A stretch of DNA of 64,000 nucleotides from Diplonema papillatum (lineage: Eukaryota; Euglenozoa; Diplonemea; Diplonemida; Diplonemidae), in NCBI GenBank assembly GCA_030068145.1, contig JAPJBO010000412.1:1-64000 (forward strand). Reading direction: 5' to 3'. The notes under the pieces are model-generated. The model ran no database searches, was not told where the DNA came from, and was given only the letters and a program-made list of their open reading frames with translations. Of the stretch, positions 2,814 to 53,680 are shown piece by piece (within the stretch, counting starts at the first letter, position 1; each line of letters opens with the position of its first letter). The position numbers and the translations under genes are program-made.

Positions 2814-3505
2814 GCGCCTCCGCCGGCGAGGCCGCTCAGCACGCCTCCCAGCACCGCAGGGAGACCGCGAGTCGGGGCTACGACGAGCTCGTCGTAGCCC
2901 ACGTCGCCGAGATGGACGCATCTCTCGGCGAGATGCAGGAGATCTTGCGGGGGCTCGCCCCACAAGAGGAGGCCGAGAGGGCACTGGTGCCGAGCGCACC
3001 GCGGGCGGCGAGGGTGCCCCACCAGGGGTTTGCGTTCCTCCCGCCGCCAGTAGCCCCTGGGCCAAAGGAGCCGGCCGGAAGGGACGCTGGGATGCGTGAG
3101 GCATCCGAGGCCCCCCAGGCCGGCGATCTGCCGGTGGGGCGCCGCCTCTTTGACGAGGAGGTGGACTTCCCGAGGTCGTCGGCGGCGTCCTCGCCGGCGA
3201 CTCCTCGGGACGTCGAGCTAGTCCCGGCGGGGCGTCCCAGGGCGCAGTCGTTGCCGGCAAGCAGGGAGGGCGACCAGGCCCAGGCTGACCCCGTTGCCGT
3301 CCAGGCAGAACCCGCCGCCGCCGGGTGCGAGGCCGTTCAGGCCGACCTCGTCGCCGCTTGTGGCGAGGTCGACCTGGCTGACCCCGCAGATGCCAGGGTG
3401 CGAGGCCGTCCAGGCCGACCTCGTCGCCGCTTGTGGCGAGGTCGACCTGGCCGACCCCGCAGTCGCCAGGTGCGAGGCCAGCCAGGCCGACCCCGTCGCC
3501 GCTAG
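2459..3505 (+). CDS. Middle part of RLE element, second frame
   Basis: From about 2600 to 3398 this frame carries plausible coding sequence: Glu/Ala-rich helices, a C-x2-C pair (LCGLCG, about 2790-2805) followed by two His, then an acidic linker. It ends in the first 72-bp repeat unit. At about 3398 one extra G relative to the next unit moves the open frame to that of 3399-8501. The segment therefore belongs to the same polyprotein. The reading after 3398 and before about 2600 is not meaningful. Confidence 0.5.
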   Translation: MPEHQRAGEVRPFFSNNKPTAPFANRSYHPPPLRTKQTHTAQTTGPRPARSSKGVQATALHAVDELPEGPQLPAVLDAWARVRRAQAEAEALEEEHLQWFRSWAATPVVALCGLCGRLSASAGEAAQHASQHRRETASRGYDELVVAHVAEMDASLGEMQEILRGLAPQEEAERALVPSAPRAARVPHQGFAFLPPPVAPGPKEPAGRDAGMREASEAPQAGDLPVGRRLFDEEVDFPRSSAASSPATPRDVELVPAGRPRAQSLPASREGDQAQADPVAVQAEPAAAGCEAVQADLVAACGEVDLADPADARVRGRPGRPRRRLWRGRPGRPRSRQVRGQPGRPRRR

Positions 3506-8625: not shown

Positions 8626-11600
8626 TTGGACTACCGCTCCGGAAGCAACCGGATACCGGCAGCCCCGCTGTACCAACATGGCAAGTACAGTGTCCCGCGC
8701 TCCAAAAAAAAGAAATCCGAAAAATCTCTCATCGACCAATGCTCCAGCAAAGATGGCCTCTTCCTCTGGTCCTGTACCACATTCAAGCCCACGTCCGAAA
8801 CCAGATCTCAGCGGCAACCTCCACAACCAACCCCAAGCAGTTCTGCACCCTCCTCGCTGTGTGCCTTAACCAGACTCGCTGCACGCCCTCGACGCTCTTC
8901 ACCCCACGGACGCCTCCTGACCACCTGCGGGGACATCCATCCTAACCCGGGCCCTCATCGTGACGGAACGCTGCGTGTCCTCTCGTTCAACTGCCACAGC
9001 TGGAAGGTTCGAATGCGTTACATCTTGTTCATTCTCGCGAAATACAACGTGGATGTCGCATTGCTTCAAGAAGTGTTCGTGCGGCCCTCCGACCCGATTA
9101 TTGTGCCTGGGTACCGTACCGAATGGCGAGAGAGATCAGTACCGAGAAACTCACACACGCCTTCCGCCATAGCCTCTGGTGGTCTGCTGACGTTGATCCG
9201 CGACGGCATCGTCTACTCACGAAAGACGGACGTTGCACTTTCAAGCCCAACCGACCCAACCGAGAGGCTCGATATCGAAGTCACCCTATCGAACAACACC
9301 CCTCTACTTCTAATCAACATCTACCGACCGCCTATAGTGCATCGCAACGCGGGGGAGACTCGGACTGACCAGTTCAACGCAGCACTACTTCCGACCGCCA
9401 ATGCTATTATAGCGGGGGACTTCAACTTTCATCACCCGATGTGGGAGAACGGTGCTGACGAACGAGACGTGAAGAGCCGCAAATTCGCAGAATGGATCTT
9501 GTGCTCTGACCTCGTCTGTCTCAACGATCCCGATGTTCATACTCGGCCCTGTTCAAAAACGTCACCTGATATCTTCCTTGTTCCTGCTCAACTTGAATCA
9601 GGGTGGAGGACTCTTGACACTGGCGGGTCAGATCACGCACCAATGCTGGCCTCCCTCACTTATGCTCATTCCACGGCTGGTGGGAAAGCAAGGTCGTTCG
9701 ACTGGGCGAAGGCGAAATGGGAAGACTTCACTAGCCAGCTCGACCACCTGCAGCTTCACTTATCCAACGTCCACGACACGAACAAGCTGGCACGCGCCTT
9801 CGCCCACGCCATGAGGTCCGCTAGAAACAAATGCGTCCCACTGGAAAGCAAGAGGCGAGGTAAGCCCTGGTTCAACCCAGAGATAGAGGATGCTATTGCC
9901 TTGCGAGACCGCCTCAGGATCCGCTTAGCTGAGCTGAAGAACGTGAACTTGTGCACGAGTGAGACAGAGGCCTCCATTGCTGCGACTCAGAGTAGGATTA
10001 ACATGCTGATTTCTGATTCCAAAAGGGCTACGCTGGAGCGTTCGACCAAGCATCTGTCGCGGCTTTCAAATACCAAGCAGGCGTTCACCGCTATAAAACG
10101 CCTGGACGGTCGTACGACCGACCTACACATACCGCCCTTATACGTCAACGGTACATTGGAATTCGACGATGCCCGCAAAGCGAACGCGATGGGGAATCAT
10201 CTAGCTAGCGTATGTTCTGGTGCGCCAACCCCTCGTCTCGTTGACTCCTCATCTCACCGCACCCACGACAAACCATTCACCATGCATGAGCTAGATAGAT
10301 GCATCTCTGCTCTTGATCCAACTACCAGCTGCGGGCCTGATGGTATCAATAATGTCATGTTGCAAAACCTAAGCCAGCCTACGCGTTCCACCCTCCTGCG
10401 CCTCTTCAACCTCTCATACGAAAATGGGGTGGTACCTGCGGTCTGGCGCGATGCGCACATGATGATGCTCCTGAAGCCGGGGAAAAGTGCAGATCAACTT
10501 GACGCCTACCGCCCGATTGCACTGACCAGTTGTATCGCGAAACTACTGGAACGCCTCGTCAACAACCGTCTGTCGAACCTGTTGGAAGGAAGACTACACC
10601 CGGCACAAGCGGGCTTCCAGAAGGGTAGATCAGCAGAGGAACAGATCTCAGCCGTGCAGCTCTCTCTGCAGGCGGCCAAAGACAACGGCAAGCGCTCTGT
10701 TCTCCTGCTCTTTGACATCACCAAGGCCTTTGATAGGGTCGTCAAAAGCATTCTCACGGGAGAACTTCGGAAAAAAGGTGTCTGCGGTCGCATGTTACGT
10801 TGGATCTGCGAGTTTCTTCGCAAGCGGCGCGCAGCGGTCAAGGTCAACGACAGGCTGGGGAAGTATTACGACTTCGAGAAAGGGGTTCCACAGGGGACTG
10901 TCCTCGCCCCAGCACTGTTCTTGTGCTACATTGACTCCCTCGCTCTCGAACTCGAAATGCTGTTCCCGGGCATCACGCTTTCATTATTTGCCGATGATCT
11001 GGCAGTCGTTCTGAGTCATCTAAACCTATCGGAGCTAAAAGTGAAAACACAAGCGGTTGTTGACGCTATCGACAAGTGGGCCAAACGATTTGTCCTGAAC
11101 ATTTCCTTCGAGAAGACGAAGCTGATGTACATCCCATCGCACGCGGAAACGAACATCGAGAACGTCACCGTCTTCTTCCCGTCCTCCTCCCGCGACACAA
11201 TAATCGACAAGGACAAGCTAAAGAGTCTCAATCTCGTTCCAACCGACTTATTTGATGGCACCAACCTGTTGTTCGACCTCACCGACAAGGCGACTCGTAC
11301 ACGCGACCAGCAGCTGTTAACCCTGGACGGCCGTAAAATAGTCGAGTGCAATGGCTTAGGCATCTCCAACTACTCCCACCTGATGTCATGTATTCGATCC
11401 TTTGACAAAGTGCTCTTCACCACCTGCGCCTGCATTCCGAACGTGACTTCCGCGCGCTTCCTCGGCGTCACCTTCGACAGCTTCCTTAGCTTCGAGGTAC
11501 ATGCGACGAAGGTACGTCAGCGCTTCAACGCAAGGCTCTCGGTACTGCGCCTGCTGTCGTCGGCCATGAGAAGCTCTCAATTGCATATACTGCGACCGGT

Positions 11601-13083
11601 TTATCTTTCATACGTCCTTCCCGTCCTCAACTATGGTGCTGCCGTATACAGTGCTTCGCTCAGTCCGGATACGATACAGGCCCTCGCTCGTGATCAGAAT
11701 AGAGCACTTCGTCTCATCTCAGGGCTTCCGCAATCCACGCCTCTACAAGCTCTACATCTCGAAACCGGCACTCTTCCGCTCGAACTCTGCTTCTCGAAGC
11801 TCAGAGCAATCCTCTACGAAAGGCTCATCCGGCAACCTGGCACCAGCGCCCACAACATCTGCAAGTCCATCGTCACCACATCCCCATCACACAAAACCGC
11901 CGCCATCGAGCTCATAGCCGACGCAGGACTACTCGACGTCGCACGACAGGATTTGCGCTGCCGCCCAGTCGATCATGACTATGTTGACTCTCCTTTTGCC
12001 TCTTTTCATACAGCCATACACGGCGTAGCAAAAAAAAAGTCGAAGTCAGAGAACAAGCGTCTAACCCTGATCAGGCTAGCAGAACTGGGCCGGGCAGATT
12101 TTGAAGCCTATACAGACGGCTCCAAATCAACCGGCAAAGACCGGACCGGTTGCTCCTGTTACATCAGAGTTTCGAACCCTGACCTGCTGTGCGTCGAAAA
12201 GTTGAAAACGCTCCCAAGGATAGTTCTAGGAAGCATCCGCCTCCTTGTATGGAGGAGATCACCCACCGAGATAGCGATAGGAGCGGATGGTGGTGCTTAT
12301 GCCACTACTTGCAGAGCTGAGATGATCGCCCTTCTCATTGCTTCCCATGCGCTACTCCACTTGACGGCCAACGCACAACAACCGAGAATTGTAGTTCTCT
12401 CTGACTCACAATCAGTCCTCACGGAGCTCAGTAAGGGCACACACGCACTCTCTGATCTTGTTGCATGTAGTATTCGCAAACAATTCAATCAAATAGCATT
12501 TGCAACAAAGGCCAAAATAGACGTCCAATACGTCCCAGGACACTGTGGAGTAGAGGGCAACGAGTACGCCGACACGGTCGCTAAGCACATGACCAAGATC
12601 GTGACTCCAGCTTCACACCCAATTCCTAGAACCCCCCTAGATTTCCAATCCTCCCGAGCTCGTATCAACGAGTTCGTCAAACAACGCTACATCTCCAATC
12701 GAGAGCAGAATTACTACTTTGTAGCGACAGCGGCATCTCTGCCAGCCAAACTACCCACAACACTCTCGCGTATGGCAGAAGTAGCTGTTCTCCAGCTACG
12801 TACGGGCCACTCCCCGCTCAGTAAGCCTTTTCTCTGTACAGACGCCAACAAAAAAGAACACTTGCTGAAGTCCGAATGCTGGCACTGTGGTGCACCCGTC
12901 AAAAATAACGTACTGTACCACATCCTCATGTCTTGCCCAGTAATCGCCCCGTCCCGATCGGCACACCTTTGCAACCCAGCCCCCAAGAGATTGAGTGATG
13001 TTTTCCTCCCCGGTAACTGTGCGAACCTCGTTAGATTTCTCCAACAGACCGGAGATCTGAAAGAGTTCCCGGCAGAAGAGTAG
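8626..13083 (+). CDS. Ingi-type polyprotein: APE, RT, RNase H, zinc knuckle
   Basis: 1485 aa, close to L1Tc in length. Residues 102-110: 2A-like GDIHPNPGP. ~116-340: apurinic-like endonuclease with VLSFNCHSW, LLQEVF (catalytic Glu), IAGDFNFHHP and GSDHAP. ~540-830: RT with FDITKAFDRV (motif A, ~696), KGVPQGTVLAP (motif B) and LFADDLAV (motif C, ~788). ~1160-1320: RNase H with EAYTDGSK, CRAEM, LSDSQS and GHCGVEGNEYADTVAKH. ~1419-1440: C-x2-C...H-x4-C knuckle. All catalytic residues expected for these domains are visible. The protein would nick DNA, copy its RNA at the nick and remove the template. The Met at 8626 is the first in frame; initiation elsewhere is possible. Confidence 0.93.
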   Translation: MDYRSGSNRIPAAPLYQHGKYSVPRSKKKKSEKSLIDQCSSKDGLFLWSCTTFKPTSETRSQRQPPQPTPSSSAPSSLCALTRLAARPRRSSPHGRLLTTCGDIHPNPGPHRDGTLRVLSFNCHSWKVRMRYILFILAKYNVDVALLQEVFVRPSDPIIVPGYRTEWRERSVPRNSHTPSAIASGGLLTLIRDGIVYSRKTDVALSSPTDPTERLDIEVTLSNNTPLLLINIYRPPIVHRNAGETRTDQFNAALLPTANAIIAGDFNFHHPMWENGADERDVKSRKFAEWILCSDLVCLNDPDVHTRPCSKTSPDIFLVPAQLESGWRTLDTGGSDHAPMLASLTYAHSTAGGKARSFDWAKAKWEDFTSQLDHLQLHLSNVHDTNKLARAFAHAMRSARNKCVPLESKRRGKPWFNPEIEDAIALRDRLRIRLAELKNVNLCTSETEASIAATQSRINMLISDSKRATLERSTKHLSRLSNTKQAFTAIKRLDGRTTDLHIPPLYVNGTLEFDDARKANAMGNHLASVCSGAPTPRLVDSSSHRTHDKPFTMHELDRCISALDPTTSCGPDGINNVMLQNLSQPTRSTLLRLFNLSYENGVVPAVWRDAHMMMLLKPGKSADQLDAYRPIALTSCIAKLLERLVNNRLSNLLEGRLHPAQAGFQKGRSAEEQISAVQLSLQAAKDNGKRSVLLLFDITKAFDRVVKSILTGELRKKGVCGRMLRWICEFLRKRRAAVKVNDRLGKYYDFEKGVPQGTVLAPALFLCYIDSLALELEMLFPGITLSLFADDLAVVLSHLNLSELKVKTQAVVDAIDKWAKRFVLNISFEKTKLMYIPSHAETNIENVTVFFPSSSRDTIIDKDKLKSLNLVPTDLFDGTNLLFDLTDKATRTRDQQLLTLDGRKIVECNGLGISNYSHLMSCIRSFDKVLFTTCACIPNVTSARFLGVTFDSFLSFEVHATKVRQRFNARLSVLRLLSSAMRSSQLHILRPVYLSYVLPVLNYGAAVYSASLSPDTIQALARDQNRALRLISGLPQSTPLQALHLETGTLPLELCFSKLRAILYERLIRQPGTSAHNICKSIVTTSPSHKTAAIELIADAGLLDVARQDLRCRPVDHDYVDSPFASFHTAIHGVAKKKSKSENKRLTLIRLAELGRADFEAYTDGSKSTGKDRTGCSCYIRVSNPDLLCVEKLKTLPRIVLGSIRLLVWRRSPTEIAIGADGGAYATTCRAEMIALLIASHALLHLTANAQQPRIVVLSDSQSVLTELSKGTHALSDLVACSIRKQFNQIAFATKAKIDVQYVPGHCGVEGNEYADTVAKHMTKIVTPASHPIPRTPLDFQSSRARINEFVKQRYISNREQNYYFVATAASLPAKLPTTLSRMAEVAVLQLRTGHSPLSKPFLCTDANKKEHLLKSECWHCGAPVKNNVLYHILMSCPVIAPSRSAHLCNPAPKRLSDVFLPGNCANLVRFLQQTGDLKEFPAEE
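8929..8955 (+). other. 2A-like motif at the N-terminus of the Ingi polyprotein
   Basis: Encodes GDIHPNPGP, residues 102-110, immediately before the APE domain, as in L1Tc. If active it would release a ~109-aa leader. The nonapeptide is identical to the one in the unrelated RLE element at 4899-4925, although the codons differ. Confidence 0.7.
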
Positions 13084-21774: not shown

Positions 21775-22050
21775 CCGGTCACGGACCACTGTCACCGATG
21801 GTTTCAGTGGTCGGAAATGGCGAACCCAAAAATGGCTGGGGTTTTTTGGATGTATGGGTGGTGAGTTCGAAACCCACCCTGGGCAAATTTCAATGTTCGA
21901 GAATGGGCAAAAAGTTAGGCGACTGTTCGAGAATGGGCAAAAAGTTAAAAAGTGTTCGAGAATGGGCAAAAAGTTAGCGAGTGTTCGAGAATGGGAATTA
22001 GCCCTGCGGGAAAATCTGGTAAAAAAATGACTTTGGCGGGATTCGAACCT
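21775..22050 (+). repeat. SINE-like B-box copies and a 29-bp tandem repeat
   Basis: GAGTTCGAAACCC (about 21862) and GGGATTCGAACC (about 22038) are B-box-like and each is followed by a repeat boundary. Between them GTTCGAGAATGGGCAAAAAG occurs three times, with a fourth partial unit (21895-22000), in a 29-30 bp tandem array. Non-coding. Confidence 0.55.
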
Positions 22051-22522
22051 GTGCCGGAAGGGGTTCCCCAACACGAAAAGTGGGTGTGCCACGAGCACCA
22101 AAAGGTGAAGTGCGACGTCTGCAAGCGCCGGGGCAAGTCGGTGGCGTGGTGCTGTAAGGCCCACCACAAGGAAGACGACGGCCTTGCGGTGAAGTTCTGC
22201 GCGCAGCACCGCCTGACGCAATGCGCGACGTGCAAGACGATCGCGGAGTGCTGCCGCAACGGACACCACCGGTGCCTTGATCATGGCATGCCGACGTGTG
22301 CGCACTGCAGCCGGCTCGCGGATTTGCGGAGTCGAAGGCCCAAACTGTGCTGTCGGAAGGGGCACCACCGGGCGGCCGTGGCGAGAGGTGAAGAATCAAC
22401 GACGAAGAAGAGGAAGGCGGAGCCGGAGGGCCCCGCGCCAGCGCCGAGACAGGCGAAGCGAGAGAACGTGGTGCTCGTTCTGCCGGAAGCAGCGGAAGGC
22501 GAGCAAGAGCCCGCAACATCAA
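22051..22522 (+). pseudogene. Triple Cys/His module, truncated copy
   Basis: Encodes almost the same Cys/His-rich segment as 38290-38620: three modules of the form C-x2-H-x4-C-x2-C-x(5-13)-C-C-x(2,3)-H-H, then a Lys/Arg/Pro-rich linker. The frame is open from upstream SINE sequence, so the apparent start codons are accidental. After ACATCAA the sequence enters the nested (TC)n-tailed element. All metal-ligand residues are retained, so the truncation is recent or the segment is conserved. Confidence 0.75.
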
Positions 22523-23690: not shown

Positions 23691-24079
23691 ACATCAACAC
23701 CGACGTCAGCAGCGAAGGTCGGGAAGACGGCACCAACGCCAGCGAAGAAGCGGCAATTGGACTCCGCGGCGGAGCCAGTACCGAAAAGACGCAAAGGACG
23801 CGTCGATGTGCCACGACCATCGACGATTACGCTCGCTTCGATGCAGATTATCGCCACAGATTCTTTGCATTCTAATCCAAACGATTACGCTCTATTACAC
23901 TCGATCAACATTTGGGTGAATTGGGGGGGTACTGCAGTAATTGATTAAAGGCGTAACACTCGGCCAATTTTGATAGCCGGTTCAACGGGCCCACTAACGC
24001 ACCTTCTTCGGGCTAAAAAGGTGCTGATGACAGGATATTGAAATTGGAATAAAAACAAGAATATTAGTCTGAAAAAATG

Positions 24080-31424: not shown

Positions 31425-31732
31425 AAATCACACGGAATCACAACAGATCACATGACAGCCCATGATAATTTGTGATCCTCCCCGTCGACCCGATGACAAT
31501 GGCCACCCCATTCTGTCCCTTTTCGCCAACCCGCCTGCAGTCCCCGTGCTCTTCATCTCGAGAGCTTCCGGTCTCATATGCACATCGCCCACTTGCCTGC
31601 GGTTTCCGTCCCTCGTATGCTTATGCTTGGCACTTCTTGGGCCAGACAGTGGTCAACATGGTCGCCCATGGGCCAGTCAGGGGTCCACCAGTGGTCGAAC
31701 CCAAAATACTAGTGTCAATCTCGATCACACTC

Positions 31733-31797
31733 TACAATGCTCTACTACACTCTGCTACACTCTGCTACACTCTGCTACACTCTACTACACTGTACTT
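31733..31797. repeat. TACACTCTGC decamer tandem repeat
   Basis: Five to six imperfect copies of CTACACTCTG lie just upstream of element C. A similar TTACACTCGAT motif ends element C at 39085 and its truncated copy at 23907. Confidence 0.8.
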
Positions 31798-31973
31798 TAT
31801 TGGTGTCTTGCCGTGGACACTCTCGAAGGAGAGCGGCACCGGGATCCGTCCCGGTAAAGGAAGCACCAACAAAGTATCAGGAGGACGAAGACAACAGAAG
31901 AAAACCGACGACACACGGACACGCACACACACACACACACATACACACAAAGCAGTACACCCGTGAGCGCGCA

Positions 31974-33887
31974 ATGACGGATCCGGGGTTCAGGGAACTC
32001 GCCGCCCAAGTGCAGGCTCAGGGCCAGCAGATGGCGACCCCGATGGCTGCCGTCAACGGCCTGGTAGAACAGACCCGTTCGGGTGGTGCACGGATGAGGG
32101 ACGCTCGCTCCATCTGGTTGGACGAGGAGGGCGAGGAGGAAGCCGAGCGGGGAATCGACCCAGACGGAACCGACGGGGAGGTGGAGGGCTCGGAGATGCA
32201 AGGAAAGCGTTCGAAGGCAGAGGACACGGGCGGAAGAGGCGGAAAGGGCAAGACGAATGCAGGTGAGAACGACGACACCAGCGGCGGCGGGAACGGCGTG
32301 GCGAAGCAAGAGGCGTCGGGTGGAAAACAGGGCAAAAAGAAGAAGAAGCGCAACGGAGGCTGGATAGAGGTGTCGGGTAGGAAACCGACGGCCGCGCGCG
32401 CGATGGAAGAGAAGAAAGTACAGGAAGATTGGGGAGTGCCGGTGGTTGACCACACCGAGTTGGCGGAAGCGACGGTGGCATTCGCGCCCATGGCGAGCGC
32501 ACGCAGGATACGACGTGAAGGGATGCCAGAGGGCTCGGCGGTGGTCACGGTGGCGGCTCTGGAGGGCAGCAGGCGGACGGACGTGGTGTGCCGAGTTGAC
32601 GGCGCGGAGAAAGTGCTACCGGGGTACGTGACGAGGTCCCCGGAGGGAGACGTGGTGTACGCGCCCGCGGACGTGAAGAAGGTTGACCGCCCGCCGACAT
32701 CGACGGTGCTGATTTGCGCCGAGATAGATGCACGATGGTGCGGGGCAGAGACGTTGGCGGCCCTGCAGGAGCCATCGGGGGGGCGGGTGCTGAAGGCGGA
32801 GTGCAGGCGGCTCGCGGGAGAGGCGAAGGTGGACCTGAGTCCGCACAGCATGTTCAACGTGCGGCGGGTAAACCGCGTATTTCAGATGATGGTGCGCGTC
32901 GAAGAGGAGCAGGTCGGGAGATTGCTGAGAATTTCGGGCAGGAGGGGTCTCTTTCTACGCATACCGCGCTGGAAGGAGGGGTCGGAGACGAGCGACGTCG
33001 TGTGGCTAGCTGACGAGGAAGCATCGCTGAAGAGCGCTCTCGTGCTCGCGCAGGGGAAAGGCTGCCTGGGCCTTGCTCGTAGTCGCGCGCGGCTGGGGGT
33101 GAGGGTCGAAGACGGCATGTCCGAGCGGGTGCGGGAATTGCTGGGCGAAGCGGCGGCGAAGCAGGGGCCGCCCGCGATGCATTACCTGGTGAGGGGGGCA
33201 CAGGCGCGCGATGCCGCTTCGGATCTTGAGGCGACCATGAAGGCGGCGGGATGGACATGTCGCCAAGTCGCGTCCTACCGGAGCAAGACGCATGGGGACA
33301 CGCGCGTCGTCGCCAGCGAGGAGTCGCCCCCGCATCGACTGATAAGCGCGGGAGGTGCGCTGATGAAGGTCGATGACGAGACCGAGGAAGACAGGTCCGG
33401 ACGGCGGCCGAAATCGCAGGTGTGGGATGCGAGGGCGGAGAGGACGCCGAAGGTCTCGTCATATCTCGAGGCGATGCGACGGCAGGATCAGGAAAAGACG
33501 AGCATACCCGAGCAACCGAAGGGCGCAGGCGACAACAATGGCGCGGTGCGACAGCTCAGGGCGGAGAACGCGGAGCTACGCGCGAAGAACGACGCGCTGC
33601 GAGGTGACATCGCAGCACTCAGTGCTCAGATGGCGAAGCTGACTGAGATGGTCGCGACGATGAGGCCGAAGACACCCCCGGCGATGCCCGTAGACCGAAC
33701 CCCGATCAAGAAGAAGGCGCCGAAGACGCCCGTCGCCACACCGACGAAGCAGAGGACGGGACGGGTCGAGGCTCCGTCTGAAGACGTCCACATGACGCAA
33801 CCGAAGCGTCCGCTGGGGACGCCGGGGAAGTCACCATCGGCGAAGACGAAGAAAGCGCACCAACCGGCGTCGGCGAAGCGTTCGTGA
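31974..33887 (+). CDS. Element C ORF1 protein
   Basis: 637 aa from ATG 31974; the open frame extends upstream through microsatellite sequence, but this Met is the first sensible start, after a (CA)n-rich leader. Residues 1-140 are acidic and Lys-rich. About 165-430 is the conserved-looking globular part (VVTVAALEGSRRTDVVCRVDG, STVLICAEIDARWCG, RRVNRVFQMMVRVEEEQVG). About 523-565 is a heptad-patterned coiled coil (LRAENAELRAKNDALRGDIA). The tail is Lys/Pro-rich with repeated KTP and PKR motifs. By position and composition it is the nucleic-acid chaperone and trimerising ORF1 of a non-LTR element. No CCHC knuckle is visible. Confidence 0.7.
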   Translation: MTDPGFRELAAQVQAQGQQMATPMAAVNGLVEQTRSGGARMRDARSIWLDEEGEEEAERGIDPDGTDGEVEGSEMQGKRSKAEDTGGRGGKGKTNAGENDDTSGGGNGVAKQEASGGKQGKKKKKRNGGWIEVSGRKPTAARAMEEKKVQEDWGVPVVDHTELAEATVAFAPMASARRIRREGMPEGSAVVTVAALEGSRRTDVVCRVDGAEKVLPGYVTRSPEGDVVYAPADVKKVDRPPTSTVLICAEIDARWCGAETLAALQEPSGGRVLKAECRRLAGEAKVDLSPHSMFNVRRVNRVFQMMVRVEEEQVGRLLRISGRRGLFLRIPRWKEGSETSDVVWLADEEASLKSALVLAQGKGCLGLARSRARLGVRVEDGMSERVRELLGEAAAKQGPPAMHYLVRGAQARDAASDLEATMKAAGWTCRQVASYRSKTHGDTRVVASEESPPHRLISAGGALMKVDDETEEDRSGRRPKSQVWDARAERTPKVSSYLEAMRRQDQEKTSIPEQPKGAGDNNGAVRQLRAENAELRAKNDALRGDIAALSAQMAKLTEMVATMRPKTPPAMPVDRTPIKKKAPKTPVATPTKQRTGRVEAPSEDVHMTQPKRPLGTPGKSPSAKTKKAHQPASAKRS

Positions 33888-33902
33888 CTGACGAACGACG
33901 AG

Positions 33903-34430
33903 ATGCGTGGCGGAGGAAAGACGCTCGAAGCGCTGGGGTCTCGGTTGAAGGAAGCGGCGGACGCGATGGGAGCGAGTATGCAGGAGATCCCTGGGGACGG
34001 TGCCTGCCAGTTCGCAGCGGTCGTGGCCGGGCTGCCGGGATGGTCGGTAGGGGGGCTTCGTGCGCGTGTTGTGGACGCGATGTTGGAGGACCCGACGTTC
34101 GAGGCCCACTTCGCGCCGTCCGAAAGGTACGGCAGCTGGGACGTATACGTGGAGGCGATGCGGGGACCGTACGAGTACGGGGACGAGATGACGCTGACGG
34201 CAGCCGCAACGGTCACCGGGACGACAATCTGGGTACTGGACAGCAGGAGACCGCACATCCTGCGACGATACGCACCTCGCGCGGGCGCTACAGGGGAGCA
34301 GGCGGTAATCACGTATGTGCCGGAACACTACGACCGACTCCTACTCCCGGGCAGCGCTATGGCAGAGTGGCGCGACGTACAGACACGGTGGAAACTGCGG
34401 CATTGCGCATTGAAGACGCGGGGAGGATGA
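33903..34430 (+). CDS. OTU-family cysteine protease encoded by element C
   Basis: 175 aa, start 15 nt after the ORF1 stop and end 25 nt before the APE/RT frame, all on one strand. The OTU signature is clear: IPGDGACQFAAV supplies the Asp/Cys pair (D32, C35), SWDVYVEAMRG...YGDEMTLTAAATV is the central helix-strand segment, and YVPEHYDRLL supplies His142. Spacing between Cys and His (about 107 residues) fits OTU domains. OTU enzymes cleave ubiquitin or ubiquitin-like isopeptide bonds. In a retroelement the domain could process its own proteins or remove host ubiquitin marks; which one cannot be told from sequence. The triad is intact although the RT downstream is ruined. Confidence 0.85.
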   Translation: MRGGGKTLEALGSRLKEAADAMGASMQEIPGDGACQFAAVVAGLPGWSVGGLRARVVDAMLEDPTFEAHFAPSERYGSWDVYVEAMRGPYEYGDEMTLTAAATVTGTTIWVLDSRRPHILRRYAPRAGATGEQAVITYVPEHYDRLLLPGSAMAEWRDVQTRWKLRHCALKTRGG

Positions 34431-34455
34431 AAGAGCGAGCGCCGAGTCACGGAAG

Positions 34456-37153
34456 GTGCCACCGAAGTGGGATGGCGGAGTGTTGCAACGAGAGGAAGGG
34501 AAAACACTGAGATTTGGAACGCTCAACATGACCTCATTGGGTGGAAGGGCGCACTTCTTGGACTGTGCCGCGGTAGACATTCTGGCGGTACAGGAGACGC
34601 TCTTGACCGATTGGGGTCAGAGGGAATTCGAGGACGGCGTCAGCCAAAGCTGGAAGTCGCTGTGGGGGGAACCGTGTCGGGAACGGCTTGACCGGCAGGG
34701 TAAGGCATCACCGTGGGTTGCGGAAGCCGGCGGAGCGGGTGTCGCAGTTTTTGCGAAGAAACCGACGCCGGCCTTCGTGGTCGGGAAGCCATCACTGAGC
34801 CGAAGATGGGTGCACGTGGCCGTTGGACTTGGAAAAGGGAGCCAGTTCTTGCACATATTCACTCTATACGCGAATTCTGGGGACAAGGCTGCGTCGGAGA
34901 GGGAGAGGATCATTGCGGACACCGGGAAGCATCAAGTCTCGGGCGGGTGCCAGTGGTTGTGGCCGGGGATTTCAATGCAGAACCCTCGTCGTCGGCGGCG
35001 ATGTCGAGCATGCTGCGGTCGGGATGGTACGACGCCGCGGAAATCTGCTCCGCTGGCGGTGCCCCGAAGACGTACGAGAAGGCAGGCACGCGAGGCACAC
35101 GCATCGACCACATCTTGTTGAACGACGTCGCGATGCAGGCACTGGTAGCGAGCGAGACCACCGTCGTCGTGGACGGGGAGGGGCAGCGGGTGCCCAGTCA
35201 CAAGATGGTAACGGTGGAGTTGGACATCGCCGCGTTCGCAGACACGTGTGAGAGGTTTCGGATGCCGAGGTCACTGCGGCAAATGAGCAAGGTGGACGAG
35301 GGGCGAGCAGCGGCAAGAGCGGAAGAGTTGTTGGTGAAGAATCGCTTCGGCGATGCGGCACCAGGGAACGTGGAAGCACTCTGGCTGTCGGCGACGAAGG
35401 CGTGCGAGCAGTTTCTGATCGAGCTGGCAGAGGAACAGGGGCTGCTCGACGGGCCCGTTGCCGCCTATCGAGGAAGAGGTGAGACGAGGGTGCCCAAAAG
35501 GGTGCGAATTGCATCTGCGATGGACACCGGGACGGGCGCAGACACATATGCCTCGAGCAGAGTCCGGAAGGCGATGAACGGCCTCGACGCGTATATCCGA
35601 GGGTTGCAAGCTCTGAATGGGGAAGGACCTGGGTGCATGCCGAGGTCGCTGGAGAAGACGTGGCAGAACGTGGTGTCTGGTCTGGATTCTATGGCCGGAC
35701 AAATACCGAAGGTGCGCAATTTGCCGCGGCGTCCACCGGACTTGAGCGTCGCCCAGACCGTCAGGCAGAAGCTGGAAGCGAGAAGCCGTACACTGACGGC
35801 ACAAGCGCGTAAAGGGAGGATTGCACAGCTGGAGAACAAGATGCAAAACCTCCAGCGCGAACAAAGCGCAGTTGCTACCGTGGTGCAGGAAGAAGAGGGC
35901 GGATGGCCTGGTGTGGAGGGGCAGTACACGGCGAACGCACGGCAGATCGATGCGGCGTTGCAGAAGGAGTGGGCGCCGGTTAACCGGATGTACGAGGGCA
36001 AACAGGAGCCGAGCTATGAAGCGTTCCGGACGGAGTATGCGGAATATATCGAACATCGTCCGATGGAATGCCGAGATTTGACGGGCGAGGATCTGAAAAG
36101 CGTTCTTGGAAAGAAGAGGGATGGCGGTGTCCCAGGTGTGGACGGATGGGACACAGCGGAGCTGAAGAAGCTGTCATTGCCGCTACTGAACGCCCTGGTA
36201 GCGGTGTTCAACGCGATAGAAGCGACCGGAACGTGGCCAGACGCGTTGTTGGAAGCCGCGGTCACATTGATCCCGAAGGACGAAACTCTTGACCCGCTGG
36301 CGTTGCGGCCGATCACCGTCACAAGTGCGATCTATCGCTTGTGGGCGAGTACGCGGCTCAGGGACGTCGTCCAGTGGCAGGAGAAATGGATAGCGGATAG
36401 CCAGCACGGATTCAGGCCCAAACACGGGACCGTGGACGTGGTATTCGAAATAGCCTCGCAGATCGAAGAAGCGCTCTTGAGGTGTCTTCTTGCGGTTCTA
36501 CCGGCGGCGACGTACGGCTCCGAGTTCGCGCTCCCGACGGTGCGAGGGCTGGGGAAGTTCACCGCAGCACTAGTCAGAGGCGTCTGGGACCCGGTGAGGA
36601 TGCATAGGGCGCAGGAGGCCGTGTGGGCATTCTCAACAAGTTGCGAAGTGCCACTTACTCGACCCATACGCAGTGCTGCCGTATCGGTCACTCGGCATGA
36701 TCGCAGAAGTGTGCCGAAAAAGGCCGGCGTGGAGGGCCCGCGTCGCAACAGTTCGACGGGCGTATGGCAGCAGAGTCCGCGCGTGGGGACCGGTCGGTAT
36801 TGCGGCCGAGCATGCAAAAAAGCTCGGTATACGATGGACGGAAGATTTCGACGACGCCGAGGACGGGGCAGGGAATGTGCTGAGGCTGGTACGGCAAAGC
36901 AAGGGGAGCGAGGGCACACCCTGAGAAAGGCGATTCACGGCTGGCGACTAGGGGAGCTTGAGAAGAGGCGCGCAGACTTCGGAGGGGTACGGGCAGGTGT
37001 AGACTTCAACGCGACGAATGCCTACGGGCTGAAGGCGTCGACAACGCTGACGGCCGCGCGGGACGTTGCCGAGGTCGTGGCTGGGTCAGTGATGACGGAA
37101 TCACATGCTGCCAAGCTGTGGGAGGCGACGGGCTGTGCAGACGCTGTGACGAG
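34456..37153 (+). pseudogene. Element C APE endonuclease and reverse transcriptase, damaged
   Basis: The APE domain begins in one frame (TLNMTSLGG; DILAVQETLL with catalytic Glu; HIFTLYANSG). It continues in another after a shift near 34910-34950 (VVVAGDFNAEP; RGTRIDHILL; VPSHKMVTVEL). A coiled-coil linker follows (about 35750-35900). RT finger motifs follow (GVPGVDGWDTAEL; LALRPITVTSAIYRLW; DSQHGFRPKHGT). At about 36478 the sequence jumps to the post-RT region (LPAATYGSEFALPTVRGLG), so motifs A, B and C, including the catalytic Asp pair, are deleted. Near 37130 a shifted frame gives LCRRCDEATEE, the start of a zinc knuckle. Non-functional. Confidence 0.85.
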
Positions 37154-37417
37154 GCGACGGAAGAAATGTGAAAACGGGGTTTTGCCTAGAGGCTTTTCGT
37201 GTTATTCTGCAGATGCTTTGGGCTATCTTTGTGTCTATGCTTTCAGTTGTCTTCTTAACCATTGTTAAGTGCGCAAATGGTGTCAGCCGAAGCTGGTAAA
37301 GCTTCGGCGCCGCCCACGTTATGTTTGTATAGCATTGAGTTCTTTTAAGTACATGAACCACGTGGATTAACATGCACTTGTTTAGCAGCAGCTGCACAGC
37401 CCGTCGCCTCCCCACAG
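37114..37417. repeat. Foldback insert bounded by a 27-bp inverted repeat
   Basis: AGCTGTGGGAGGCGACGGGC...CAG at 37114-37140 recurs as its reverse complement at 37391-37417 with one extra base. The left arm is element C coding sequence; the ~250 bases between are AT-richer and unrelated. They contain a GCCGAAGCT/AGCTTCGGC hairpin (37286-37308). Coding resumes directly after the right arm (LKLIWWQCRAYE), completing the zinc-knuckle region that was interrupted. Confidence 0.85.
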
Positions 37418-38894
37418 CTGAAACTCATTTGGTGGCAGTGCCGGGCGTACGAACGAATCCGAGGGCAACACCAATATGCCGAAATTGTTGGCGCGGATCG
37501 CTCGACTTGGCCCCCGTGCCTGCAAGAACACGGGATTCTGCCGAAGGGAAGTCGAGTCAGCATCGAAGTGCTGCACACGTTCATGGCGGAGACGACGGCT
37601 GGAGAGAGAAGGAAGAGACCGGGCGGTCGGCCACCCCTGGAGACAACTGCACCCTGACGACTGCCCCCCGCGCCGGCTGAATTTCGAAGCGATCGCTGGA
37701 CCGGGGACCTTCACGGCGGTCGGAGGAGAGAGGTGGTTCCGGGCGCTGCAACATTGGCTGGATGGGATGTGCTGGTCGGTGGCGGGTGACGTGTCGACGG
37801 CAGAGCTCGCCATCGACTTTGAGGTATACACCGGATTGGACCTTCCAGGCAATGTCGTAGCAACGACGGACGGGACACCGTTGAGCATGCGTGCGAGGGT
37901 ACTCGCAAGGCTTTTGAAAACCGTCGGGGATGCGCTGGAGCGAAACGGCGACGAACCGCCTCTGCCGGGAAGGAAACTGGGGACGATAGGGTCGCTGAGA
38001 ACGGTGGGAGCCCCGCCGTGCCTCACGGGGTACGAGATGAGGCCAATCTTCCGTGGTGGTACGGAGACGATGGAAGTGCTCGAGACGCAGCTGACGACGG
38101 CTCGGCACGGATTCAACGGCGAGGCGTGGGGGATGGATCTTTTCCCGACGTACGGAGGTGGAAGGGCGGAGCGTGCGGCGAGATGGGCGGTGTTCAACGA
38201 CGCTACGGAGAAGAAGAAAGGCAAGAAGTCGGCAGTCGTCGGAGGGGATCCGTGGTACGTGCCGGAAGGGGTTCCCCGACACGAAAAGTGGGGTGAGCGG
38301 GTGTGCCACGAGCACCAAAAGGTGAAGTGCGACGTCTGCAAGCGCCGGGGCAAGTCGGTGGCGTGGTGCTGTAAGGCCCACCACAAGGAAGACGACGGCC
38401 TTGCGGTGAAGTTCTGCGCGCAGCACCGCCTGACGCAATGCGCGACGTGCAAGACGATCGCGGAGTGCTGCCGCAACGGACACCACCGGTGCCTTGATCA
38501 TGGCATGCCGACGTGTGCGCATTGCAGCCGGCTCGCGGATTTGCGGAGTCGAAGGCCCAAACTGTGCTGTCGGAAGGGGCACCACCGGGCGGCCGTGGCG
38601 AGAGCTGAAGAATCAACGACGAAGAAGAGGAAGGCGGAGCCGGAGGGCCCCGCGCCAGCGCCGAGACAGGCGAAGCGAGAGAACGTGGTGCTCGTTCTGC
38701 CGGAAGCAGCGGAAGGCGAGCAAGAGCCCGCAACATCAACACCGACGTCAGGAAGACGGCACCAACGCCAGCGAAGAAGCGGCAATCGGACTCCGCGGCG
38801 GAGCCGGTACCGAAAAGGCGCAAAGGACGCGTCGATGTGCCACGACCATCGCCCAGGCGCCGAGAAAAAGCAGAAATCGACGCGCAACCGATGA
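37418..38894 (+). pseudogene. Element C C-terminal region with triple Cys/His module
   Basis: It starts with LKLIWWQCRAYERIRGQHQY, the second half of the post-RT zinc knuckle, in one frame to about 37640. It continues in another with ALQHWLDGMCWSV, AELAIDFEVYTGL and GTIGSLRTVGAPPCLTGYE, homologous to the (TC)n-tailed element. At 38306-38590 lie three modules C-x2-H-x4-C-x2-C-x(5-13)-C-C-x(2,3)-H-H, very likely zinc-binding. A Lys/Arg/Pro/Ala-rich tail follows. Each module has eight potential ligands; the domain is not one I can name. It may bind nucleic acid, or ubiquitin in the manner of B-box or UBP-type fingers. Confidence 0.75.
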
Positions 38895-39122
38895 ACCTCG
38901 ACGAGCAATCGAAGAACAAGCGAAGCACCAAACGCGCGCCTGAGCGCGACGATCAAGACGAGCTAAAGAGGCGAAAGCATGACACTTCACGTGCGAAGAG
39001 ATAACCGCGCAGTCGGCGATGCAGATTATCGCCACTGATTCTTTGCATTCTAATGCAAACGATTACGCTCGATTACACTCGATCAGGGGGTAGGTGAATT
39101 GGCTCAATTTATCGGAAACAAA

Positions 39123-45745: not shown

Positions 45746-47353
45746 TCAACGACGAGAGCCGGAGACAGCTGTGTCACCAGATTGAGATTGGCCTGCACTT
45801 GTACCAGACGAGGATTCGTAGCACTGTTGAGAGCAGACGTTGCTGGAAGAGCCGGTTTGCACAGGACCGATGTGGATGGCACACCAAGGGTCGGCCATGG
45901 GCGGAGTAGCAAAGATGGCAACGACGGCTGCATCCACGGTGAGAGGGACAACGACGGACAGGCCGGCTTCTAACTGACCGTGGAATGCAACCATCGGCTG
46001 CTGGGTATTGTCCGTGCTGCCGGCTTCCGCGAATGAAGGGGCGCAGGATCCAGGGCTCCAACCTTGCAACTCCAGAGCGACGGGAAGGCCTCCGTTCTTT
46101 GCGGATGTCGCGCATCCGTCGCAACGGTAGAAGGCCACAACAACGTCGCACGCCTCGGAGCTACAGCAGAAGAGGGTGATGTCCGTCTGGGCTGCGATGG
46201 GGAGGGACGGCACGAACGCGTGGCCCCCGACGTAACTCGGAGGAACATGGAAAAAGTTGAGTCCACCTGCAGACAGCGGCGACTGGGCATCGACGGCCAC
46301 CGGCGACACAGCGTCGGAGCCGACTTGAACTGTCACACCGGCAGGAGGACACACGGGCGCAGGCTGGGGGCGGGTGCCGCCTGCCATCGCGTCTGTGTCT
46401 TGTGGTGGAGTCGGCGTCGAGTTCGACGACGGAACGCACGACTCGACGGCAATGCTGAATTCAGTCGGTGACTCGCTGACGGCGACAACACCGCTAGGAG
46501 CTTCACCGCACTGCTCTTCGCAGAAGTTCCATGACAACCCGTTCAGAAACTGCAGCGTGTACTTGCCGGATGCTGTGACGTTAATCACCATCCGCGCTGA
46601 GTGCTCGAACATGTCATCGCTGTCCGAGGACACAACGCCAACAGCGCTCGTGCTGCAGTCACTGCATTGCGACAGGTACCTCTCGTTTGAAGTTTGGAAC
46701 GCGTAGCTGTGGCTACCGATTGCGTGCACAGTGAACTGTACATCAGAAGCATCTGACGACGCGGAGGTCGCCTTCTGCGTGAGCACACCGTCCGACGTGC
46801 CGCGGCACGTGGCGTCCTTGCACCAGTGCATGAGCAAACCCTCTACGCTAAAAGACACCGTCCAGCCTGCCTGCGGAATATTCATGGAGCCATCGAAGTT
46901 TCCCCCAGAACAGACAGGGCACGACACGGTGACGACGCGGAAATGACAGGACGAGTCATCCAGCTCGGTACCCTGTACCCCAACCATCTTGTCAAGTGGG
47001 TCGACTGACAAATACTGTCCAACGGAAGTCGACTTGATCACATACATCCCCTGAAATGCCACCAACTTGAACTGAGCCGTTCCCCAATGCGCACTCGGAC
47101 CTGTTGTCGTCAGCGCAGTCCCCAGCTGGGACAAAAAGGTGCCTGTCCAACTTCGCAGAGCGAGCTGGCCGTCGTCGACGTAAACGACTGTGAACTGCGC
47201 ATCTTTGGTGGTCCTTGACCCAGTTGCGGCTGCGTAGCCCGATGCATCTGGTCTCACGTACGTTCTGGAGCCCACTGATAATAACGCGATCTTGCAGCCA
47301 GGTGCAAATTGCGCTGTCGCTGCGGCCAGCACGGTGAGTATGAGGAGCGCCAT
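45746..47353 (-). CDS. Secreted protein with two beta-trefoil-like domains
   Basis: 535 aa, no intron. The N-terminal MALLILTVLAAATA is a signal peptide. Residues ~20-145 look like a fascin/ricin-type beta-trefoil (LALRSWTGTFLSQLG; MYVIKSTSVGQYLSV). About 150-315 is a second, Cys-containing trefoil-like domain (SFSVEGLLMHWCKDATC; SYAFQTSNERYLSQC; YTLQFLNGLSWNFC). A Pro-rich linker follows (~320-340), then a C-terminal beta-rich domain (~340-505; ITLFCCSSEACDVVVAFYRC), and a Ser/Gly/Gln-rich tail. Paired Cys imply an extracellular, disulphide-bonded protein. A carbohydrate- or surface-binding role is inferred from fold only. The ATG is the first in frame and gives a proper signal peptide. Confidence 0.6.
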   Translation of the reverse strand: MALLILTVLAAATAQFAPGCKIALLSVGSRTYVRPDASGYAAATGSRTTKDAQFTVVYVDDGQLALRSWTGTFLSQLGTALTTTGPSAHWGTAQFKLVAFQGMYVIKSTSVGQYLSVDPLDKMVGVQGTELDDSSCHFRVVTVSCPVCSGGNFDGSMNIPQAGWTVSFSVEGLLMHWCKDATCRGTSDGVLTQKATSASSDASDVQFTVHAIGSHSYAFQTSNERYLSQCSDCSTSAVGVVSSDSDDMFEHSARMVINVTASGKYTLQFLNGLSWNFCEEQCGEAPSGVVAVSESPTEFSIAVESCVPSSNSTPTPPQDTDAMAGGTRPQPAPVCPPAGVTVQVGSDAVSPVAVDAQSPLSAGGLNFFHVPPSYVGGHAFVPSLPIAAQTDITLFCCSSEACDVVVAFYRCDGCATSAKNGGLPVALELQGWSPGSCAPSFAEAGSTDNTQQPMVAFHGQLEAGLSVVVPLTVDAAVVAIFATPPMADPWCAIHIGPVQTGSSSNVCSQQCYESSSGTSAGQSQSGDTAVSGSRR

Positions 47354-51718: not shown

Positions 51719-53680
51719 TCACCCCTCTTTCTGCAGGGCGGGCGCATATGACAGAGGCGCGCCTTGACGAGGCGAGTTGGCAGCATCTCCCTGGTCGTCT
51801 CCACTCGCTGGAGAATCCGAATGGTACTCACTGAGTTGAATCAGCCGTACACGAGTCCTGTAGTGCTCCGTGTACATTGTCACCCATTGTGACGGCAGTG
51901 CCTCAAGTGCGTATTCACTATCCTTTCGCAAGAACGAAATATCACCCAACAGGTGATTGATCTTGGCAACTTGGAGATTCAACGCCCGGCGCAGTAAAGC
52001 ACGCACGAGAGCTCGCTCCTCCTCAACCATAAGGGCAGCCTTTGCTTGGACGATGCCAAGGGCGGCTGATGCAAGTTGAGACACGGTGCAAGTTGATGTC
52101 TCCGATGCCGTGTCAGAAGAAGATAGCGCCAGGAGGGTGCGATCAACAACGCTGCGAGGCGCACACTCCTCTAAGAAGAGCTGCGTTCGCGCAACGAGTC
52201 GCTGCAGGGCCGACGAACCATCCGGTGCTTCTTTGCGGGGTGTATCCTCCCCCAAATTGTTGTCAAGAACGAGCTTGAGGGCCACATAACGAATCATGCA
52301 CTCCTTAGCTGACCGTCTTGGAACCTGGTGCTTTGCGTAGGCTCCAAGTTCCTCCCCAAATGATTCAGGGGTGCGAAGGAACTGGACCGCGTGGAGGATG
52401 CCGATGTCGTCGTCTAATACGTCGGGTGTTGTCGAACCTGTCTGATCAGCTGAAATCGGCACCTTGAGTGTCGGTAATTCGTCCTCGGCAGTCGGGATAG
52501 CAGGAGATACCTCCGACGCGTGCCCAGCTGCGTCCAGCTGGTAGTTGATCAGGCCCCATTTCTCAAGGAACCTGAAAATCACCTGCAACTTGAATATGTC
52601 ACCGGAGGCAGCTCGCCGGAAGCCTGTAAAACTGAGGTACGCCCCCGGTGTGGCGCGGTAACAGCGGACAATCCAGTCTCGCGTGTCTACATAACAACTG
52701 TCAAGCGGGACAAGTTGGCTGTAATTTTTCCCCGCAATGAGCGGGACTTCTTCGCGCTCGATCGGATGCACAATGCCGGGGCTGTACCAAGTTGAGTACA
52801 AGGGAATCACCACCACGCGGCGCTCACTCGGCAAAACCGCGCGGCTTGGTTGTGGAGGGAGAGACGCCGCGGTACGGTCAACATCCTCGCCGCGCGGTGC
52901 TGCCGGCTGCTGCACTGCTTCACTGTCGCCAGTCTTCTTAAAGCGGGACGCTAAAGCCGACTGCAGCTTCTTCATTCTCTTCCTCGTGGCCTCGGAAATG
53001 GTTCGGTCATCTGCACTGTCAGGTGCTCGCTGACGCTTGCCCTCCTTTTCCTTTTGCGGAAGCGGTGCTGATCGCCCGGCTTTGTGGAGCTGCAAGGGAA
53101 GCTCGACGCAACGAATGTCAGAAAGAATCCGTGTTCGGGTATCCGTCGGCTCGGAAGAAGAACAGGTTGCTGCAACTGCGTAATCACGAGGATCTAACCA
53201 TTCACCGAACTCGAAGCTGTCGAGCGCGTACGTGACGGGCAACGAGACAGGGAAACCGTCGTTCCGGAGATGGTTCAACAATTCGCAGACGTCGACTCCG
53301 CCAGCGGATTCCAACTGAGCGTCGAGTATCCCCTTTTCCGGAGCACGCAGCGCTTCAGCTACGTTTGCGTCGCGCAGCGAATCGAGCTTCTCCTGCGTGG
53401 TCCACACATCTGTGGAAGGCGGAGCGAACACCTGATGGAGACGCACGAGACGCCTGTCTTTCGTATCGTCCACAGAACCGAGACGAAAGAGAAACGGATA
53501 TTGGTCACAGAGCAACGCCGTGCCATCACCCACTGCCGGCCGGTCGATGCACGCGGACGCTGCGTGCTTCAATGCGGTGGTCTTTCCGCCGAGTGCTTCT
53601 ACTATATCGTCCACGTGAAGTGCGTGGGCGCCGACGTCGAGCCAGAAGACGGGTTGCACACCCTGCTTGGCTTGCGACAT
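51719..53680 (-). CDS. SWI3: SWI3/SMARCC-like SWIRM-SANT chromatin remodelling subunit
   Basis: 653 aa, no intron. Residues ~287-383 are a SWIRM domain: VVVIPLYSTWYSPGIVHPIE, then YRATPGAYLSFTGFRR, GDIFKLQVIFRFLEKWGLIN and YQLD. Residues ~425-470 resemble a diverged SANT domain (FGEELGAYAKHQVPRRSAKE-CMIRYVALKL). Residues ~540-610 are the Ala/Leu-rich helical C-terminus typical of SWI3/SMARCC (VQAKAALMVEEERALVRALL). A basic nuclear-type stretch (RKRMKKLQ, ~240) precedes SWIRM. The N-terminal ~230 residues may be the BRCT/chromo-like module of SMARCC but are not clear. The protein would be a core subunit of a SWI/SNF remodeller in the nucleus. Confidence 0.88.
   Translation of the reverse strand: MSQAKQGVQPVFWLDVGAHALHVDDIVEALGGKTTALKHAASACIDRPAVGDGTALLCDQYPFLFRLGSVDDTKDRRLVRLHQVFAPPSTDVWTTQEKLDSLRDANVAEALRAPEKGILDAQLESAGGVDVCELLNHLRNDGFPVSLPVTYALDSFEFGEWLDPRDYAVAATCSSSEPTDTRTRILSDIRCVELPLQLHKAGRSAPLPQKEKEGKRQRAPDSADDRTISEATRKRMKKLQSALASRFKKTGDSEAVQQPAAPRGEDVDRTAASLPPQPSRAVLPSERRVVVIPLYSTWYSPGIVHPIEREEVPLIAGKNYSQLVPLDSCYVDTRDWIVRCYRATPGAYLSFTGFRRAASGDIFKLQVIFRFLEKWGLINYQLDAAGHASEVSPAIPTAEDELPTLKVPISADQTGSTTPDVLDDDIGILHAVQFLRTPESFGEELGAYAKHQVPRRSAKECMIRYVALKLVLDNNLGEDTPRKEAPDGSSALQRLVARTQLFLEECAPRSVVDRTLLALSSSDTASETSTCTVSQLASAALGIVQAKAALMVEEERALVRALLRRALNLQVAKINHLLGDISFLRKDSEYALEALPSQWVTMYTEHYRTRVRLIQLSEYHSDSPASGDDQGDAANSPRQGAPLSYAPALQKEG

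Follow-up and report, generated by a model that had tools for sequence, protein, structure and literature searches.

OTU proteases are encoded together with the polymerase in RNA viruses, as in the nairovirus L protein, the arterivirus replicase and the PRO/DUB of turnip yellow mosaic virus. Among mobile elements, the nearest precedents for the arrangement described here are NeSL and Utopia-1_TSP, non-LTR elements whose reverse transcriptase (RT) protein starts with a ubiquitin/SUMO-removing cysteine protease (PMC4640811). There, however, the protease is Ulp1 and the endonuclease is restriction-like, whereas in the lineage of our locus (lineage A, with lineage B as its sister) an OTU is combined with an APE endonuclease, and Utopia is described as one protein, whereas lineage A has two ORFs. 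Pfam lists no Ulp1 or restriction-like endonuclease family for three intact ORF2s, and for comparison with Dualen/RandI (APE plus restriction-like endonuclease), APE alone is listed as significant on the intact ORF2s. Ginger1 and the Helentrons also carry an OTU domain, in Helentrons along with an AP endonuclease (PMC2836005, PMC4067079, PMC6431247), but they are DNA transposons for which the accessible text describes no LINE-type RT, and the OTU lies at the C-terminus of the Ginger1 transposase and in an additional ORF in Helentrons rather than at the N-terminus of ORF2, as in lineage A. 2A-like sequences of the motif D[V/I]ExNPGP are described in L1Tc and in sea urchin APE-type non-LTR elements (PMC4981915), whereas here a 2A divides an AlkB or OTU module from APE and lineage A is without one. 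A Gypsy retrotransposon of Phalaenopsis carries an AlkB m6A demethylase with activity shown in vitro (PMC9289625), but that is an LTR element with the enzyme in a separate ORF, whereas here AlkB occupies a slot in a LINE-type ORF2 that can also hold an OTU. In the literature we searched, with Repbase and most subscription journals outside it, we found neither domain, OTU or AlkB, reported from APE-type non-LTR elements, and an earlier description in those other sources is possible; the accessible parts of PMC11943222 and PMC12747079 contain nothing on either domain in APE-type LINEs.

The window copy and its intact relatives

The window (the whole stretch of DNA analysed, 64 kb) holds a 175-aa ORF at 33903-34430 that a sequence-only reading had described as a free-standing OTU protease ORF in the middle of an APE-type non-LTR retrotransposon. 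Translation of the window bears out the ORF and its ATG start, as well as the spacing of 15 nt from the ORF1 stop (which ends at 33887) and of 25 nt to the next listed ORF, whose GTG at 34456 stems from a bacterial start-codon list and does not count as evidence of a start. The separateness of the ORF did not survive comparison with other copies. It almost certainly represents the N-terminal domain of an ORF2 polyprotein, encoded by a LINE-like non-LTR retrotransposon of the APE type with two ORFs, and it became detached from APE and RT when this dead copy lost the frame; judged against its relatives, the separate OTU ORF is a decay artefact. The parts of the window copy, many of them delimited by comparison with the closely related copy L017, are as follows:

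31596..39108, + strand: lineage-A non-LTR element copy, from blastn to L017 (5' boundary approximate; may extend further 5')
31974..33887, + strand: ORF1, start codon uncertain, stop TGA followed by CTG
33903..34370, + strand: OTU domain, the N-terminal domain of ORF2, with D32, C35 and H142-Y-D (Pfam, alignments, PDB profile)
34371..34430, + strand: tail of the 175-aa ORF, read out of frame and ending in a 10-nt deletion (alignment)
34573..35135, + strand: APE endonuclease domain of ORF2 (PF03372), split over two frames here
36274..36479, + strand: remaining N-terminal part of RT (tblastn of intact ORF2)
37167..37425, no strand assigned: foreign insertion in ORF2 (blastn)
37427..39001, + strand: C-terminal part of ORF2 with the Cys/His-rich repeat region, holding the listed 472-aa ORF 37476-38894
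39002..39108, + strand: stop and 3' UTR, with the fixed 3' end (copy comparison)

In an alignment with 11 copies, the window departs from their frame near residue 156 and lacks 10 nt a short way further on, leaving the last ~19 residues of the 175-aa ORF out of frame; the OTU looks free-standing here because the frame is broken at 34371..34430. Blastn aligns the window with L017 over 31596-36480, 36492-37166 and 37426-39109 at 96-97% identity. PF03372 matches fall in two window ORFs, one of the two below the cut-off, and by tblastn the copy has lost ORF2 residues 869-1078, the RT palm among them, between 36479 and 36489, while the C-terminal part is recovered as residues 1307-1374, 1366-1752 and 1756-1840. 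Around the insertion, 37309-37378 corresponds, on the minus strand, to the end of lineage-B elements at their 3' side, 37161-37382 has an 82% match to a stretch downstream of the element in copy L022, and 37386-37419 repeats a short part of the window element in inverted orientation. Over OTU codons 1-150, the window copy differs from intact L017 by no synonymous and one non-synonymous change, and on this comparison it is dead but young. It had been argued that the OTU stayed open while the RT palm was deleted, and so is well preserved. The palm is indeed lost and the domain is indeed conserved among copies, but openness in this copy is not evidence of selection: it reflects youth rather than preservation, because the sequence is nearly identical to that of intact L017.

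Our search for copies covered the window's own genome only (271 Mb, 2910 contigs), and 150 of 883 candidates were scored. The OTU lies in a frame of at least 1700 aa in 76 of these 150, in one of at least 300 aa in 138, and in one of at most 200 aa in 4, the window included. In 148 of the 149 other scored copies (again of 883 candidates), the match ends at or before residue 157, and the window alone reaches 175; the exception, C442, is matched to residue 167 and is itself a 169-aa frame. Among 20 copies fetched, chosen mostly for long frames, the OTU is found at the expected position in every one, fused each time as the start of a longer ORF2 frame; from its ATG, this ORF2 runs for 1762-1851 aa in 17 copies and for 240, 1230 and 1553 aa in the other three. 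The closest copies, L017, L018 and L014 (97-98% DNA identity over 4.4-5 kb), have the OTU, APE and RT regions in one frame, and this intact ORF2 confirms that the OTU-type protease belongs to an APE-type non-LTR element, as first proposed.

The order in intact lineage-A ORF2s is OTU, APE, RT and a Cys/His tail, all in one frame. In L017, Pfam places the OTU at residues 30-119 (15.5 bits, below cut-off), APE at 228-416 (Exo_endo_phos, 43 bits) and RT at 800-1010 (RVT_1, 77.8 bits), and the best PDB matches of the RT are LINE-1 ORF2p (2.8e-18) and then R2 (3e-17). A zinc-finger-like stretch and a Cys/His-rich repeat region, both read from the sequence, follow the RT. The repeated units, of CC-x-x-HH type, are common to the C-termini of lineages A and B, and Pfam assigned them to no family in three intact ORF2s. 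ORF1 has no Pfam family at cut-off, with only weak coiled-coil-like matches. The ORF1/ORF2 junction is the same in all 20 fetched copies, with TGA, then CTG, and the ORF2 ATG in frame 15 nt after the stop; the frame upstream of the ORF1 stop is open for 313-793 aa in four copies and for 724 aa in the window. No 2A motif was seen in the lineage-A copies fetched.

The element's 3' end (...GTAGGTGAATTGGCTCA) is common to copies with different flanks. It is fixed in nine of the 11 lineage-A copies inspected (L011, L012, L015, L016, L017, L022, L024, L027 and the window), and the stretches inspected for L010 and L018 do not show it; the differing flanks make these nine independent insertions. No LTR was seen in L017 and L016, which align over 9.2 kb with no second match longer than 300 nt, in a comparison whose stretch may not contain the true 5' end. 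Near position 9200 of L010, two elements are head-to-tail neighbours, the 3' end of one directly abutting an ORF1-OTU piece, truncated at its 5' side, from another subfamily. Elsewhere in the window, 22012-22521 and 23691-23822 (+ strand) are fragments of the same ORF2 C-terminal part, corresponding to residues 1574-1748 and 1747-1790.

OTU identity and selection

The residues first named as the OTU motif, D32, C35 and H142, are present in the window ORF and invariant in 11 aligned copies, within an Asp-Gly-x-Cys nucleophile motif (D32-G-A-C35) and a His-aromatic-Asp motif (H142-Y143-D144); we take C35 to be the catalytic nucleophile and H142 the catalytic His. The profile evidence is weaker for the window ORF than for related element families. 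Against the window protein, the Pfam OTU profile (PF02338) scores 20.6 bits (E 6.7e-4) with a curated cut-off of 23.3, matching residues 30-119 to profile positions 1-94 of 128; this coverage ends before the catalytic His, and the His half is supported by an element-family profile. On the intact lineage-A and chimera ORF2s, PF02338 gives 14.8-15.5 bits, below cut-off. A PDB search with the window sequence alone returns OTUD3 at 0.012 and an unrelated chain at 0.75, and a single-sequence AlphaFold2 model of the window OTU has a pLDDT of 39.1 and is unusable. From the window alone, the OTU identity is thus a fair reading, short of proof.

The window OTU region is 35% identical (2e-18) to the OTU of another element family, L037, and the OTUs of L037 and three further element families score above the Pfam cut-off, at 35.5-59.6 bits. 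A profile of eight element OTUs matches OTUD3 (1.5e-7), OTUD5 (4.6e-7) and OTU1 (1.5e-6) in the PDB, with matches that extend as far as the HYD motif, which aligns with its counterpart in OTUD3. The same profile finds viral L-protein OTU chains from 1.9e-6. The PDB chains matched include 'RNA-directed RNA polymerase L' and 'Replicase'. Element and viral OTUs are alike in being encoded with a polymerase, the latter in RNA viruses.

Selection on the OTU was estimated by the Nei-Gojobori method, which ignores transition bias, in what is essentially one contrast between the subfamilies L017 and L016; lineage-A copies are mosaics, and dS between these two is 0.41 in the OTU and 0.08-0.09 just after RT. 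For OTU codons 1-150, dN/dS is 0.17 (Sd 36.5, Nd 22.5), with a synonymous excess of p ~1e-8 in a simple binomial without correction for transition bias. The corresponding ratios are 0.11 for APE, 0.10 for RT, 0.38 for the linker at residues 151-205 and 0.45 for the tail. The comparison of copies proposed along with the original reading therefore finds the OTU under purifying selection, at least between these subfamilies. The arrangement behind the original reading, an OTU as a selected, movable front domain of a LINE-type ORF2, is real and broader than a separate ORF.

Probable exchange of ORF2 front modules

A genome search with PF02338 gave 656 candidates, and 87 of the 150 scored lie in frames of at least 1700 aa. 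Five families were read as 4-kb pieces, and in four of them (L037-L040) OTU, APE and RT are above Pfam cut-offs in one frame. NPGP motifs are absent from L037-L040 in the stretches read. The ORF2 of L040 starts with two tandem OTUs:

G000:C7:257322-261321, 341-769 and 1031-1459: tandem OTUs before APE-RT in L040

The first OTU of L040 with its N-terminus is 57% identical to L037 over 241 aa, and its OTU2-APE-RT part is 43% identical to L039 over 1009 aa; by these similarities, L040 is another instance in which a front block has been placed on a different body. The D-G-x-C-x-F and H-Y-D motifs are invariant across eight element OTUs, and in an alignment of ten OTU rows, G and C are invariant and D is replaced by N in L041 only. 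This last match, on C45 (G000:C45:196692-200691, 3244-3654, minus strand), was rejected as a member of the OTU-LINE families: the OTU there is close to the C-terminus of a frame that is listed at 1544 aa and unlike LINE ORF2s, perhaps from another class of mobile element. The C-terminal ends of ORF1 in L033 and L040 read RQSTLAGFV and RQSTLVGFM, which we take to resemble a PCNA-binding (PIP) box.

In the chimeras L009, L019, L020, L021 and L025, ORF1 and the OTU are shared with the window at 92-94% DNA identity over 1.5-2 kb, ending at 34402, yet L009 and L017 have only 39% identity when their ORF2s are compared as a whole, and between lineage A and chimera dS is 0.078 in the OTU and ~2.5 in APE. 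Duplication of contigs or segments may account for some copies; L019 and L021, for example, share flanks and may be one insertion. A search with the B-type APE scored 114 of 1613 candidates, with 12 matches starting from the first residue, at the junction, and the other 102 beginning no earlier than residue 8; of the latter, 53 are in frames of at least 1900 aa. An A-type OTU lies directly upstream in 11 of the 12 junction-starting matches, and the twelfth, on C85, has none among the OTU matches listed. Four further places (C64, C144, C226 and C471) have an OTU followed by a 2A, and at least 15 places are chimeric, with an A-type OTU on a B-type body.

The two elements read from the 102 B-type matches are without an OTU, and have instead an AlkB-type dioxygenase, a canonical 2A sequence (AGDVEQNPGP or AGDIEQNPGP) and then APE:

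G000:C7:504389-506888: AlkB-2A-APE element L046
G000:C571:73300-75799: AlkB-2A-APE element L047

The AlkB family PF13532 scores 49.2 and 48.7 bits in L046 and L047 (cut-off 31.2), and the best PDB match of the L046 domain is ALKBH8 (3.9e-7); genome-wide, 150 of 250 PF13532 candidates were scored, many of them in frames of ~2000 aa. In both elements, ORF1 ends in TGA-CTG in frame with ORF2, and there is no in-frame ATG before the AlkB domain. Because the first in-frame ORF2 methionine (residue 263 in L046, 207 in L047) lies inside the AlkB match (215-311 and 158-255), the sequence suggests that ORF2 is started by read-through or from a non-AUG codon.

A DNA pattern for the 2A has 186 matches in the genome and none in a reversed control. 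Among the 100 of these 186 places that were listed, the canonical E stands in 92 and a G in 8; an AlkB match lies upstream within 400 nt in 65, a lineage-A OTU in 11 (5 with E, 6 with G), and neither is found among the matches listed in 24. One of the five with E is the chimera L048, whose order is OTU-...-LITAGDVEQNPGP-APE, and L009, L019, L020, L021, L025 and L045 have a 2A with G. The G form may be weakened, because the published motif, D[V/I]ExNPGP, has E (PMC4981915); in chimeras with the canonical 2A, a separate OTU protein is predicted if the 2A works. The slot before APE is thus very probably modular, filled by an OTU, two OTUs or an AlkB, with the lineage-A OTU block joined to the body of another lineage.

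Proposed role and alternatives

The account that we favor combines this anatomy, the exchange of front domains and a deubiquitinase role, and we consider it probable as a whole. Translation of ORF2 would either reinitiate at the ATG 15 nt past the end of ORF1 or read through the in-frame TGA, and the OTU would act in cis, as a deubiquitinase, on the RNP that contains ORF2, stripping off host ubiquitin so that the polymerase is degraded later; where an A/B chimera has kept its 2A intact, the OTU would be released and act in trans. That the OTU protects the element's own proteins in this way is the most likely of its possible roles, though we put it forward tentatively. More broadly, and with our judgment evenly balanced, the ORF2 N-terminus in this host genome could be an exchangeable counter-defense slot, holding an OTU (ubiquitin removal), two OTUs, or an AlkB (probably nucleic-acid demethylation). 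Blocks of ORF1 and front enzyme at the 5' end would be passed between lineages by recombination or template switching, and the 2A would mark one joint, letting a new front enzyme dock and be released without harming the polymerase.

Two alternatives were rejected. The window itself reads as if the OTU were a true separate middle ORF in its subfamily, but this is hardly credible when the domain is fused in L017, L018 and L014, which are nearly identical to the window copy, and when only 4 of the 150 scored copies (of 883 candidates) have a frame as short as 200 aa; as a family property, an independent OTU gene is refuted by the fused close copies. A captured fragment of a host gene, carried as a neutral passenger, is very improbable. 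The genome does contain two likely host OTU genes (L029 and L030) that are detectably similar, L029 with 31% identity to an element OTU at 9e-9. However, each element OTU scores higher with other element OTUs than with L029 or L030, by a small margin for L037 (62 vs 58 bits) and the first OTU of L040 (61 vs 57 bits), and five diverged ORF2 families have an OTU with D-G-x-C and H-Y-D invariant. We rejected the passenger on the strength of purifying selection.

Other alternatives concern what a functional OTU would act on. It might remove ubiquitin from chromatin or DNA-repair proteins at the insertion site (e.g., histone or PCNA), aiding target-primed reverse transcription or integration. Mobile elements that are otherwise unrelated (Ginger1, Helentrons and NeSL/Utopia) repeatedly carry OTU or Ulp1 domains, and for Ginger1 a role linked to repair has been put forward (PMC2836005, PMC4640811), but our sequences contain no pointer to a chromatin target, and we regard this role as doubtful. 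Somewhat less likely still is a polyprotein-processing protease that cuts ORF2 in the linker between OTU and APE and frees APE-RT. The N-terminal OTU adjoins a fast-evolving linker with relaxed selection, AlkB elements and chimeras have a 2A at the matching place, as though there were a benefit in separating the front module, and protein cleavage is one option proposed for Helentron OTUs (PMC4067079). Yet the linker is poorly conserved across lineage-A subfamilies (65% identity in the 75-column block in which it lies), which fits a spacer better, and an OTU and a 2A together in the chimeras would be redundant.

With these results, the OTU is no longer a curious extra ORF of one dead copy but a recurrent, selected domain of several diverged LINE-like families, in which a ubiquitin-acting enzyme and a nucleic-acid-acting enzyme are naturally swapped at the same place. 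This offers a testable system for how non-viral retroelements meet host control by ubiquitin and by RNA or DNA methylation, and it shows clearly that LINE lineages exchange modules at the 5' side.

The 64-kb window gave no matches in Rfam and tRNA scans, and a search of the genome for COX1 yielded a single weak match, below the cut-off and interrupted by stops. The rest of the window contains two other retroelements on the + strand, one at 3294-8498 with an RVT_1 frame of 1735 aa and one at 8626-13080 with a 1485-aa frame carrying APE, RT and RNase H, and host-like genes on the minus strand: a Fascin-like gene (45749-47353), a SWIRM-domain gene (51722-53680) and an IPP transferase gene (61719-63728).
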